This document shows positions 18,195-33,332 of a DNA stretch of 33,700 bases, piece by piece. The notes beneath the pieces were generated by a model. The model was not told where the DNA came from and did no database searches. It saw only the letters and a list, made by a program, of their open reading frames with translations. This DNA is from an uncultured Bacilli bacterium. Lineage in GTDB: Bacteria; Bacillota_I; Bacilli_A; RFN20; CAG-826. Position 1 is the first letter of the stretch. Every line of letters begins with the position of its first letter. The stretch spans positions 1-33,700 of the forward strand of contig CALVMY010000062.1 of NCBI GenBank assembly GCA_944349405.1, read 5' to 3'. The position numbers and the translations under genes were made by a program.

Positions 18195-18223
18195 TTGACA
18201 ATAATCATTTTTAGAAATATACT
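18195..18223 (+). promoter_or_regulatory. Near-consensus sigma-A promoter for the 46-codon ORF unit
   Basis: TTGACA (18195-18200), a 17-bp spacer and TATACT (18218-18223). The -35 is perfect and the -10 differs at one base. It is the strongest promoter in the window by eye. Transcription would start near 18230. Confidence 0.85.
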
Positions 18224-18230
18224 TTAGGAC

Positions 18231-18284
18231 CTTAAGCAAATTAGATAATGTTTATAACCCAAATACATGTCAATTTGACTTAAG
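18231..18284 (+). promoter_or_regulatory. Foldable 5' leader of the 46-codon ORF
   Basis: CTTAAGCAAATT (18231-18242) pairs with AATTTGACTTAAG (18272-18284) through 12 pairs with one bulged base, enclosing a 29-base loop. The stem starts at the predicted transcription start and ends 10 bases before the AAAAAGGAG site. No known riboswitch class is recognised; it may stabilise the mRNA or control translation. Confidence 0.5.
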
Positions 18285-18308
18285 TAAACAAAAAGGAGAT
18301 TGATAAGA

Positions 18309-18449
18309 ATGATTAAAAAACTCATTAATTTGATGAGTGGCAAACGTCATTCTTATAAAGACACGAATTCATACAGAAATGAAAATGGGTTGGAAAACTT
18401 TATAAATGACTATGTCGCTTATCTAGATTTAAAAGATTTAGATCTTTAA
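18309..18449 (+). CDS. 46-residue small protein of unknown function, strongly expressed unit
   Basis: A short frame of 46 codons (MIKKLINLMSGKRHSYKDTN at the start, ending YLDLKDLDL). The first 13 residues could form a short amphipathic basic helix; the middle is polar, the end acidic. No signal peptide, cysteines or leader-peptide GG motif. It is supported by a good Shine-Dalgarno (AAGGAG, 8-9 bases upstream), its own near-consensus promoter, a foldable leader and a strong terminator 5 bases after its stop, so it is a self-contained one-gene unit. It sits just before two MacB-type transporters, which may or may not be related. Alternatively the RNA itself is the functional product and the frame is incidental. 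Confidence 0.62.
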   Translation: MIKKLINLMSGKRHSYKDTNSYRNENGLENFINDYVAYLDLKDLDL

Positions 18450-18454
18450 AAAGT

Positions 18455-18500
18455 AGGCTTATTAATAAGATTTGCTCTGTTAATAAGCCTTTTTCTTTTT
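18455..18500 (+). terminator. Strong terminator after the 46-codon ORF
   Basis: A perfect 11-bp stem, AGGCTTATTAA (18455-18465) with TTAATAAGCCT (18481-18491), is followed by a T-rich tract. It isolates the unit from the transporter genes downstream. Confidence 0.9.
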
Positions 18501-20580: not shown

Positions 20581-23369
20581 ATGTTAAAAATAAAAGATTT
20601 AAGTAAAAAATATAATGATGAAACTATATTTGAATCATTAAATTACGATTTTAAAGAACATGGCTTTTATACAATTTTGGGCGAATCAGGCTGTGGTAAA
20701 TCGACTTTATTAAATATTATTTCTTTAATCGAAAAAGAAAGTAGTGGTGAATTAATATTTTTTAATAAAAAAATTAATTATTTAAAAGAAAACGAAAGAA
20801 GAATTTTTAGACTCAATAATATTGGTTTTATTTTTCAATCATTTAATTTATTTAATGAAGACAATGTTTACAACAATTTTTTATTAGCTTTTAATTCTAA
20901 AAATTTATCTTCTAGCAAAAAAGAAAAAGAATTGATGATCTTTTATATCGATTCAATATTAGCGACTTAAAATATTCTTTAATTAAAGATTTAAGCGGAG
21001 GAGAAAAACAAAGAGTTGCTATTATTCGAGCTTTAATTAATAATCCTTCGATAATTTTAGCCGATGAACCAAGTGGTTCTTTGGATAAAGAAAATGAAAG
21101 ATTAATATTTTCTTATTTAAAAGATTTATCTTTAGACCATTTAGTAATTGTTGTAACTCATAATAAAAGGGTAGCTTATCAATATAGTGATTATCTTTTA
21201 AAATTAACTAAAAATGAGATTATTGAAGAAAAAATTGACAACAAATTAAAAAAAGAACGTATTTTATTATCAAAAGAAGCAAAAAATTTAAATAAAAAAA
21301 GAATTAATTTTTCCTTTATTATTAATCACTTTAAGAATCTATTTAAAAGTAAAAAAATAAGAATGAGTATGACCATTTCATTTTTATCTTTTTCTTTACT
21401 TGTTAGTGGATTATCAATTTATTTAAAAGATGGTCTTACTAATATGATTTTATCTTCTTTTGAATCTTTAAGTGGAGAAAATTCTCTTTTATTAAAAAGA
21501 AAAGAAGATGATGCTTCAATTTTATCATCTTATAGTGCTTCAAAAGATGATGTTATAAATATAATGATAAATAATCCTGATGAAGTCGATTATATTGGGT
21601 CTTCATATGTAAATAATTTGGAAGAATTTTTCATTGAAGAAAACTCTTTACATTTTTTATCTAGATGGGACAAAGAGATAAAAATCGAAGATTATGGCGC
21701 AAGTAGTTTCAATGAATTTAAATATATTCCTACATTCAACAGTGTTGAAGAAATTTATCCTCGTATTGAAAATAAAATTTATAAAGACGATATTGTAATC
21801 ACTTTAAGTAACGAAAAAATGGTTTCTTTATGTCAAAGTTTAGAGATTGAAGAAACTTATAAAGCTTTAGGAGAATATATTGAAAAAAATAAACCTTCAC
21901 TACTTTTAAAAATAAGAAATGATTATTGGACTTATGAAGATGAGCAGATATTTAATTTAAGAGGGGTCATTCCTTCTAGAGAAAATATAATTTATTCAAA
22001 CGATTATTTATTTAATGAATATGTTTTTGAAACATTAATGCGTTTTCCTTCCTCAAATATATTAGAAAAAGAAGAGGAATATCCGTGGGTTTTAAAAAAA
22101 GTATATTATTTTCATACGACTTCTTTTCCATCAAATTTAATCAATAAATTATCAAAAGAAGTAGAATATCGAAACTATATTTTTGATGGAGATAAAAAAA
22201 TGTATCATCCATCTTTAAAAGAAAATGAATATTCTAACCGAGTTTATTGTTATCAGGCTTTAAAAAATAGTATTGATCTATCATTTATTGATCAGTTTTC
22301 AAAAAAATATAATTTTAAAGAATATTATTATTCTACGGATGGAGGATATGTAAATTTTGGTTCGATTTTAAATGGATTTTATCGACCTACTTTCTTTTCT
22401 TTTTCTTTAGATAAAATAAATAAAATTATTGATTTAAATACAACTATTTCTTATGAAGATTATTATTCTTTAAATGTAGAAGAAGGGGTAGGAGAAGGAA
22501 ATTATTTAAAACAAGAAACAAATACAGTGCGATTTAATCCAAAAATGAATAAAAATATTGATGGTTCTTATCCAGATTCAATATTTGAAATTGCTATTTC
22601 AAGAGGATTAAGTAAAGTTTTAAAAGAAGATAATCCGATAAATAAAACACTTTATATATCGACAATTTCTTCAATTTATGAAGATGAAAATAAAATTTTA
22701 AGACCTCAATTTAAAACAATTGAAATAAGAGTAAGTGGAGTAGTTGATGAAGAAAATAGTGAAATTTATCACCATAATGATTATTCTCTTTCTTTATTTA
22801 GAGATTTATTTTCAATAAGTGCTTTCGAACTTAATGTAAATAGCGTTACTTTTTTCCTTGATGAAAAATTAAGCGAAGAAGATTTAAATATACTTAATTC
22901 TAATTTAGAAGAGTATGAAATTATTTCTCCTTTAAAAGAAATTAATGAATCATTAAATGAGACAATGTCTTATGTTTTGCTATTTCTTTTAATTTTTACA
23001 ATAATATCTTTTATTTCTTCAATTATTTTATTTTCAATAATTAATTACATTTCGTTTTTGGAAATTAAAAAAGAAATAGCTATTTTAATAATGATTGGAT
23101 ATTCAAATTTAGAGATAATTAAATACTTTTTTATAAATAATTTATTAAGCGGATTAATTAGTTTATTAATATCGATATTTAGTTTAATTTCTATTTCATT
23201 TTTGCTTCAAATATTATCGACACAAATATTTGGAGTATCGACGAATTTTTATTTTTCCTTTTTCTCAATCCTTATTATGGTTCTTTTCTTATTAACAATT
23301 TCTTTAATTTCTTTAATAATTTTATTAAAACCTTTAAAAAAATTAGACTTAAAAAAAGAATTACATTAG
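20581..23369 (+). pseudogene. Second ATPase-permease fusion ABC transporter, interrupted by a one-base frameshift
   Basis: The ATPase begins at 20581 after AAGGAGG, with Walker A GESGCGKST (34-42), but its frame ends at TAA 20968. One frame back (-1), the protein goes on: DLKYSLIKDLSGGEKQR, then ADEPSGSLD and the permease, to 23369. The new frame opens only after a TAG at 20913, and homology to the upstream paralogue places the shift at about 20916-20934, where runs of A6 and A5 occur. The total of 2789 bases becomes a multiple of three with one base added, giving about 929 residues. The permease has a first helix just after the ATPase, a roughly 500-residue extracellular domain and three C-terminal helices. 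It is either a fresh pseudogene, a sequencing or assembly indel, or a frameshifting site. The rest is intact, which favours a recent or artefactual change. A TTG at 21081 is not a true start, as it lies inside the Walker B/D-loop. Confidence 0.85.
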
Positions 23370-32883: not shown

Positions 32884-32970
32884 TGGTGCCCGGGACCGGA
32901 ATCGAACCGGTACGGTATCGCTACCACAGGATTTTAAGTCCTGCGCGTCTACCTATTCCGCCACCTGGGC
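32884..32970 (-). tRNA. tRNA-Leu (anticodon TAA)
   Basis: Class II cloverleaf with a long variable arm (GGTAGCGATACC region), anticodon loop CTTAAAA giving TAA, T-arm GGTTCGATTCC and encoded CCA (87 nt). One A-C mismatch in the acceptor stem. It is the last gene of the five-tRNA operon. Confidence 0.95.
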
Positions 32971-32977
32971 ACTTAAA

Positions 32978-33053
32978 TGGTGACTCACTGGAGATTCGAA
33001 CTCCAGACCCCTTGATTAAAAGTCAAGTGCTCTACCAACTGAGCTAGTGAATC
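32978..33053 (-). tRNA. tRNA-Lys (anticodon TTT)
   Basis: Full cloverleaf of 76 nt. Acceptor GATTCAC pairs with GTGAGTC (one wobble), anticodon loop CTTTTAA, encoded CCA. It reads AAA and AAG, very frequent codons here. Confidence 0.96.
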
Positions 33054-33065
33054 AAAAATTTTTGT

Positions 33066-33141
33066 TGGCTGGGGTGGCTGGACTCGAACCAGCGAAATGA
33101 CAGAGTCAAAGTCTGTTGCCTTACCTCTTGGCTACACCCCA
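33066..33141 (-). tRNA. tRNA-Gln (anticodon TTG)
   Basis: 76 nt, acceptor TGGGGTG with CACCCCA, a U1-A72 pair typical of tRNA-Gln that is charged via GluRS and GatCAB; discriminator G73, anticodon loop CTTTGAC, encoded CCA. Fits the gatCAB and gltX genes in this window. Confidence 0.95.
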
Positions 33142-33157
33142 ATTTATAAAGTGTAAG

Positions 33158-33241
33158 TGGTGGAGGGGGGCAGATTCGAACTGCCGAACCCGAAGGAATT
33201 GATTTACAGTCAACCGCGTTTAGCCTCTTCGCTACCCCTCC
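33158..33241 (-). tRNA. tRNA-Tyr (anticodon GTA)
   Basis: Class II cloverleaf of 84 nt with a long variable arm, acceptor GGAGGGG with CCCCTCC, anticodon loop CTGTAAA and encoded CCA. Confidence 0.95.
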
Positions 33242-33256
33242 AGTTATGTTATAAAT

Positions 33257-33332
33257 TGGTGGATGTTAGAGGGCTCGAACCTCTGACCTCCGCCGTGTAA
33301 AGGCGATGCTCTCCCAGCTGAGCTAAACATCC
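33257..33332 (-). tRNA. tRNA-Val (anticodon TAC)
   Basis: 76 nt, acceptor GGATGTT with AACATCC, anticodon loop TTTACAC, T-arm GAGGTTCGAGCCCTC, encoded CCA. First gene of the five-tRNA operon, nearest the promoter. Confidence 0.96.

Follow-up and report, generated by a model that had tools for sequence, protein, structure and literature searches.

Comparative evidence that a small-protein transcript of uncultured gut Bacilli pairs its leader loop with its own coding sequence

Viral RNAs and a few toxin and ribosomal-protein mRNAs are known to carry overlapping constraints on protein and RNA. An anti-Shine-Dalgarno (anti-SD) segment and long-distance pairing are found in the aapA3 and hok mRNAs (PMC6733600), and the Escherichia coli operators of uS4 (alpha operon), uS15 (rpsO) and bL20 (the long-range pseudoknot of rpmI-rplT) exert autogenous control of translation (PMC10931766). 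The E. coli cspA mRNA adopts conformers that are less or more accessible to the ribosome and is acted on by the protein that it encodes (PMC9947658); in the guanidine-II riboswitch, two hairpins are joined by loop-loop kissing (PMC9300104). Here, we describe a single-gene transcription unit of ~ 270 nt at positions 18195-18500 of a 33,700-nt stretch of DNA (the window), which is one contig (CALVMY010000062.1) of a 1.07-Mb metagenome-assembled genome from a genus of uncultured gut Bacilli. The unit encodes a protein of 46 codons and was compared with its homologues in the same genus, 18 units in all. By this comparison, the apical loop of its leader hairpin has been kept complementary to codons 26-28 of a coding sequence that itself folds, which goes beyond an earlier sequence-only reading of the window.

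All units have, in the apical loop of their leader hairpin, a short C-containing stretch whose complement lies at one and the same coding site; in most units this loop is C-rich within an AT-rich leader. Among all 9-nt segments of a unit's own coding sequence, codons 26-28 were the best partner of the loop in 18/18 units. GGG is rare in the AT-rich frame, however, so that a C-rich loop finds it easily and the ranking alone is insufficient; we therefore swapped leaders among 11 lineages. Own pairs summed to -84.0 kcal/mol versus -61.8 kcal/mol for swapped ones (standard deviation 5.3; p = 1.5e-4). A shuffled-loop test of 11 lineages, which like the swap test drew on the sequences that had given rise to the hypothesis and on lineages that are not fully independent, gave a Fisher p of 5e-10, and of 3e-5 when restricted to the four re-wired lineages. 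These four carry compensatory pairs: UGGAU with AUCCA in G019 (GGA:UCC), AGUGGUG with CACCACU in G001 and AGUGGU with ACCACU in G016 (both GGU:ACC), and AUUGGU with ACCAAU in G005 (UUGGU:ACCAA). G005 has lost the conserved glycine of the protein (NKNW for NENG; codons AAU UGG UUA), yet the loop match is retained.

The coding sequence that contributes one side of this contact pairs codons 8-17 with codons 33-39. We compared the folding energy of each of the 18 coding sequences with 300 within-gene permutations of its synonymous codons and observed z values of -1.7 to -5.0 in 17/18, with a mean of -3.3 over all and -5.0 for the gene in the window; the control, 65 random 47-codon segments from the window's other genes, had a mean z of -0.28 (standard deviation 0.98). 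In sequence type A (8 sequences), both sides have changed in 6/11 pairs between codons 8-12 and 35-39 and in 8/15 pairs of the main leader helix. Overall, 15 type A pairs changed on both sides compared with 8.1 in shuffles, and 89.5% of cells were paired compared with 31-42% for slid partners. Type B has the equivalent helix, shifted, with 94.6% paired. A single RNAalifold consensus over all types gave no common fold because the register of the coding helix shifts by about one codon between types, and the types were therefore analysed separately. Conserved RNA structure within the frame is thus indicated by comparison. The sequence-only reading had considered a functional RNA with a coding-like frame; the RNA part of that idea holds, with structure conserved also inside the frame, but the frame proves to be a true gene. 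Early in the frame, type B units L021-L026 have an extra small hairpin just after the start codon (codons 2-8, e.g. UUUUCUAAAUUAUUUAGAAAA) and type A units have one formed by CUCAU/AUGAG at codons 5-10; these two hairpins could add to control of the start site.

A second long-range pairing, between the ribosome binding site (RBS) and codons 13-17, likely exists as well; we regard it as a secondary claim, weaker than the kissing contact. In 17/18 units, despite their differing sequences, the coding segment that pairs best with the RBS region falls in codon columns 13-17, and the swap test gave p = 0.006. The start-codon region pairs with UCAUUCUUAU in type A; in G015, AGAUGAAU pairs with AUUCAUCU, and in G005 the Shine-Dalgarno (SD) sequence pairs with UUCUUCUU. 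Type B pairs AGGAG with CUCCU, and G019 pairs AAAGGA with UCCUUU. As codons 13-17 also form the 5' arm of the coding hairpin, this pairing and the hairpin would be mutually exclusive.

The frame is judged a gene because it is kept open in all 18 homologues (44-47 codons) and because the ratio of nonsynonymous to synonymous substitution rates (dN/dS) is low in close pairs, namely 0.09-0.17 between G022 and close type A relatives and 0.20 between G001 and G016. The remaining close pairs gave 0.2-0.65 with few changes, and in these close pairs dS is probably lowered by the RNA constraint. Homologues occur as one copy per genome in 18/26 same-genus genomes by profile search (14/26 by single-sequence search). 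Their sequence types follow the SecY species tree, and some of the 8 genomes lacking the gene are closely related to carriers; weak matches in these 8 were due to chance, lying in other genes or in the wrong frame. No credible homologue was detected outside the genus in the family (224 genomes), the order (279) or a sample of the class (395), nor in viral contigs, phages or plasmids. The kept frame in relatives, its purifying selection and the both-side changes in its stems, above those in shuffles, bear out the coding and structural side of the sequence-only reading; its other proposal, a small regulatory protein, is likewise right in part.

The protein has a conserved core, RNENG(F/L/I)xxFIxDYVxYxD, and, as foreseen from the sequence, no known features: no family match was found in Pfam, NCBIfam or PHROGs. 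It is hydrophilic (grand average of hydropathy, GRAVY, -0.58 to -1.10), with a basic N-terminal and an acidic C-terminal part. An AlphaFold model of modest confidence (mean predicted local distance difference test score 68.5) consists of a helix at residues 2-10, a linker and a helix at 27-43, and a fold search with it returned no PDB entry up to E = 10. The product is most likely a small cytosolic protein.

On balance, we favour control in cis, in which the transcript's own fold would act as a clamp or switch on translation of the small protein. The coding hairpin would present codons 26-28 near its tip, where the 5' hairpin could kiss it across the RBS. Across the units, 16-25 nt separate the end of the leader stem from the ATG, and the window's coding hairpin begins 23 nt after the ATG; closing of the kiss would therefore enclose the SD and AUG between the two hairpins, and it may hinder 30S loading. 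In an alternative closed state, codons 13-17 would cover the SD and AUG and compete with the coding hairpin. Ribosomes would open the fold as they translate, and binding of the protein, or of some other factor, might set the level. We infer the effect on initiation, the direction of the switch and such autoregulation, as distinct from the gene, the coding structure and the kissing contact, which comparison brings out. In a bolder version that we consider quite unlikely, the protein, with a basic N-terminal and an acidic C-terminal helix, would recognise the kissing fold and form a dedicated ribonucleoprotein with its own mRNA; if so, one 270-nt RNA would be message, sensor and binding partner, and the coding sequence half of a bistable switch.

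Several observations weigh against control in cis or its supports. The kissing contact hardly varies within type A, so that the case for compensation depends on four lineages, and in G004/G024 it comprises 4 pairs, one of them G-U, no better than a shuffled loop (P ~ 0.2). The coding-sequence structure is slight in G005 and G018, and the pairing of the RBS with codons 13-17 fell short of the 0.05 level when synonymous codons were permuted (p = 0.067). dN/dS was 0.65 for G000 against G021 and G003, where changes were very few, and it was 0.6 between G014 and G008. The pairing may also operate in trans, or the fold may have a non-regulatory role. RNAIII and SgrS both act as RNA and encode protein, and a transcript of such dual function might work through its C-rich loop in trans, or as a scaffold, with internal pairing masking the loop. 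A strong promoter, its own terminator, a length of ~ 270 nt and a high degree of structure (z -6.6) are in keeping with this, as is the C-rich loop in the AT-rich leader of most units. Re-wiring of the loop along with its own codons in G019, G001, G016 and G005 fits a partner in cis instead; moreover, every copy retains the frame, and the 8 genomes without the gene yielded no copy consisting of the RNA alone. We thus regard a dual function as unlikely, with some chance of being right.

It is improbable, in our estimate, that the frame is an ordinary small protein gene whose RNA structure merely tunes mRNA stability or elongation and whose complementarity to the leader is incidental. The motif RNENG...DYV.Y.D is conserved and its GGG could be kept for the protein, but the swap and shuffle tests, the synonymous-shuffle z and the paired changes speak for selection on the RNA, and G005 retains the pairing without the protein motif. 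More improbable still is a toxin mRNA like those of type I toxin-antitoxin systems, its translation locked by long-distance pairing and an in-frame anti-SD, as in hok or aapA. The stand-alone unit is patchily present and combines an in-frame anti-SD-like segment with long-range pairing, as in aapA3 (PMC6733600). We nevertheless place it outside the toxin class because no antisense promoter is conserved and the protein is hydrophilic (GRAVY -0.6 to -1.1): a sequence scan of the 18 units found reverse-strand promoter matches in G005 and in some of the type A leaders but nowhere else. The single copy per genome and types that track the species tree also count against a toxin. Finally, the sequence-only reading had offered a secreted peptide exported by the neighbouring MacB/FtsX-type ATP-binding cassette (ABC) transporters. 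An ABC/FtsX gene does lie downstream in the window, but this neighbour is not conserved outside one clade, and since neighbours change between lineages the proposal loses its support; no leader-peptide motif was seen by eye among the mostly polar or charged residues. We consider export largely refuted and scarcely credible. Control in cis remains the reading that we prefer.

Table 1. Coordinates of the unit's features in the window, and of TnpB-like genes in three relatives.
Feature	Position	Strand	Basis or remark
Promoter: TTGACA 18195-18200, 17-nt spacer, TATACT 18218-18223	18195-18223	+	Consensus matches 11/12
Leader hairpin	18231-18284	+	Fold; ~ 12 lower pairs and upper stem; -12.6 kcal/mol
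Apical-loop segment AACCCA, partner of codons 26-28	18256-18261	+	Comparative pairing tests
SD sequence AAGGAG	18293-18298	+	Sequence
Start-codon region AUAAGAAUGA, complementary to codons 13-16 (possible OFF pairing)	18303-18312	+	
46-codon gene MIKKLINLMSGKRHSYKDTNSYRNENGLENFINDYVAYLDLKDLDL, ATG 18309, TAA ending 18449	18309-18449	+	18 homologues with open frame
Outer coding-sequence helix, 5' arm (partner 18413-18423)	18332-18342	+	6/11 pairs changed on both sides
Coding-sequence hairpin, inner 5' arm (codons 13-17), also able to pair with RBS	18346-18361	+	
UGGGUU segment, codons 26-28, partner of leader loop	18386-18391	+	Changed compensatorily in G019, G001, G016, G005
Outer coding-sequence helix, 3' arm (partner 18332-18342)	18413-18423	+	Covariation
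Intrinsic terminator: 11-bp stem 18455-18465 / 18480-18490, then T-run	18455-18499	+	Sequence and fold
TnpB-like gene	L117:3705-5060		G025
TnpB-like gene	L118:129-1484		G012
TnpB-like gene	L119:3058-4455		G010

The promoter, leader stem, ribosome site, 46-codon frame and terminator read from the sequence at the outset were all recovered (Table 1). The promoter ranks best among 19 promoter-like sites in 3 kb, and promoters with 9 to 12 matches out of 12 were observed at a similar position in 17/18 units. AGGAG begins 11-17 nt 5' of the ATG in 18/18 units. Folding of the leader by itself had a z of -2.2, and folding of the complete transcript a z of -6.6. A simple terminator scan omits the unit's terminator, whose loop is above the limit of the scan; other units also show a hairpin and T-run 3' of the frame. 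On the minus strand, a promoter-like TTGACA-17-CATTAT lies within the leader (18245-18273) and is kept only in some type A relatives. An Rfam scan of the window returned only tRNAs at gathering score and, for 18195-18500, nothing credible up to E = 1; U7 (E 0.055) and SIB (E 0.94) were rejected as far below their gathering scores.

In the window, a C1-family aminopeptidase gene precedes the unit and an ABC/FtsX gene follows it, an arrangement confined to the type A clade; in other lineages the unit lies beside other genes, e.g. DinB and a P-type ATPase. In the relatives G016 and G001, the small gene lies beside the P-type ATPase; at that place G025, G012 and G010, all without the small gene, carry a TnpB-like gene (OrfB_IS605, Cas12f1-like TNB). 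That this site holds two different TnpB lineages suggests an insertion hot spot or replacement. Further downstream in the window (20581-21200), a second ABC transporter gene is split: it begins in one frame (20581-20970), and the LSGGEKQR signature lies in a second frame that joins a 762-residue FtsX frame (21081-23369). The apparent frameshift near 20940 may be real or an assembly error. A cluster of five tRNAs (Leu, Lys, Gln, Tyr, Val) occupies 32884-33332 on the minus strand.

As a clear example from nature, the unit has a bacterial coding sequence under joint selection for its protein and for a long-range RNA contact with its own leader, here in a nameless protein family. The re-wired pairs across lineages make the kissing contact directly testable by compensatory change, and a leader loop matched against a coding apical loop could serve as a search recipe for small-protein genes that annotation pipelines skip.

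Among known systems, the cspA fold includes coding sequence, and the unit resembles cspA in being a short folded mRNA for a small protein, although this protein lacks a cold-shock domain. With the guanidine-II riboswitch it shares two kissing hairpins in a regulatory RNA, one of which is coding here. Like hok and aapA1/aapA3, it combines a small frame and a stable RNA with a putative in-frame anti-SD segment and long-distance pairing; unlike them, it has no antisense RNA signal by sequence scan, its protein is hydrophilic and its leader pairs with coding sequence rather than with the 3' end. The likeness to the ribosomal-protein operators lies in a leader pseudoknot or long-range pairing that embraces the RBS, indicated here by comparative evidence. 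Here, however, a hairpin of coding sequence carries the partner, codons 26-28, at its tip, and the unit is not a ribosomal-protein operator because its protein, which has no Pfam or NCBIfam match, is not ribosomal. By analogy, the unit most likely works like the ribosomal-protein operator pseudoknots or the anti-SD folds of aapA and hok while being a member of neither group.
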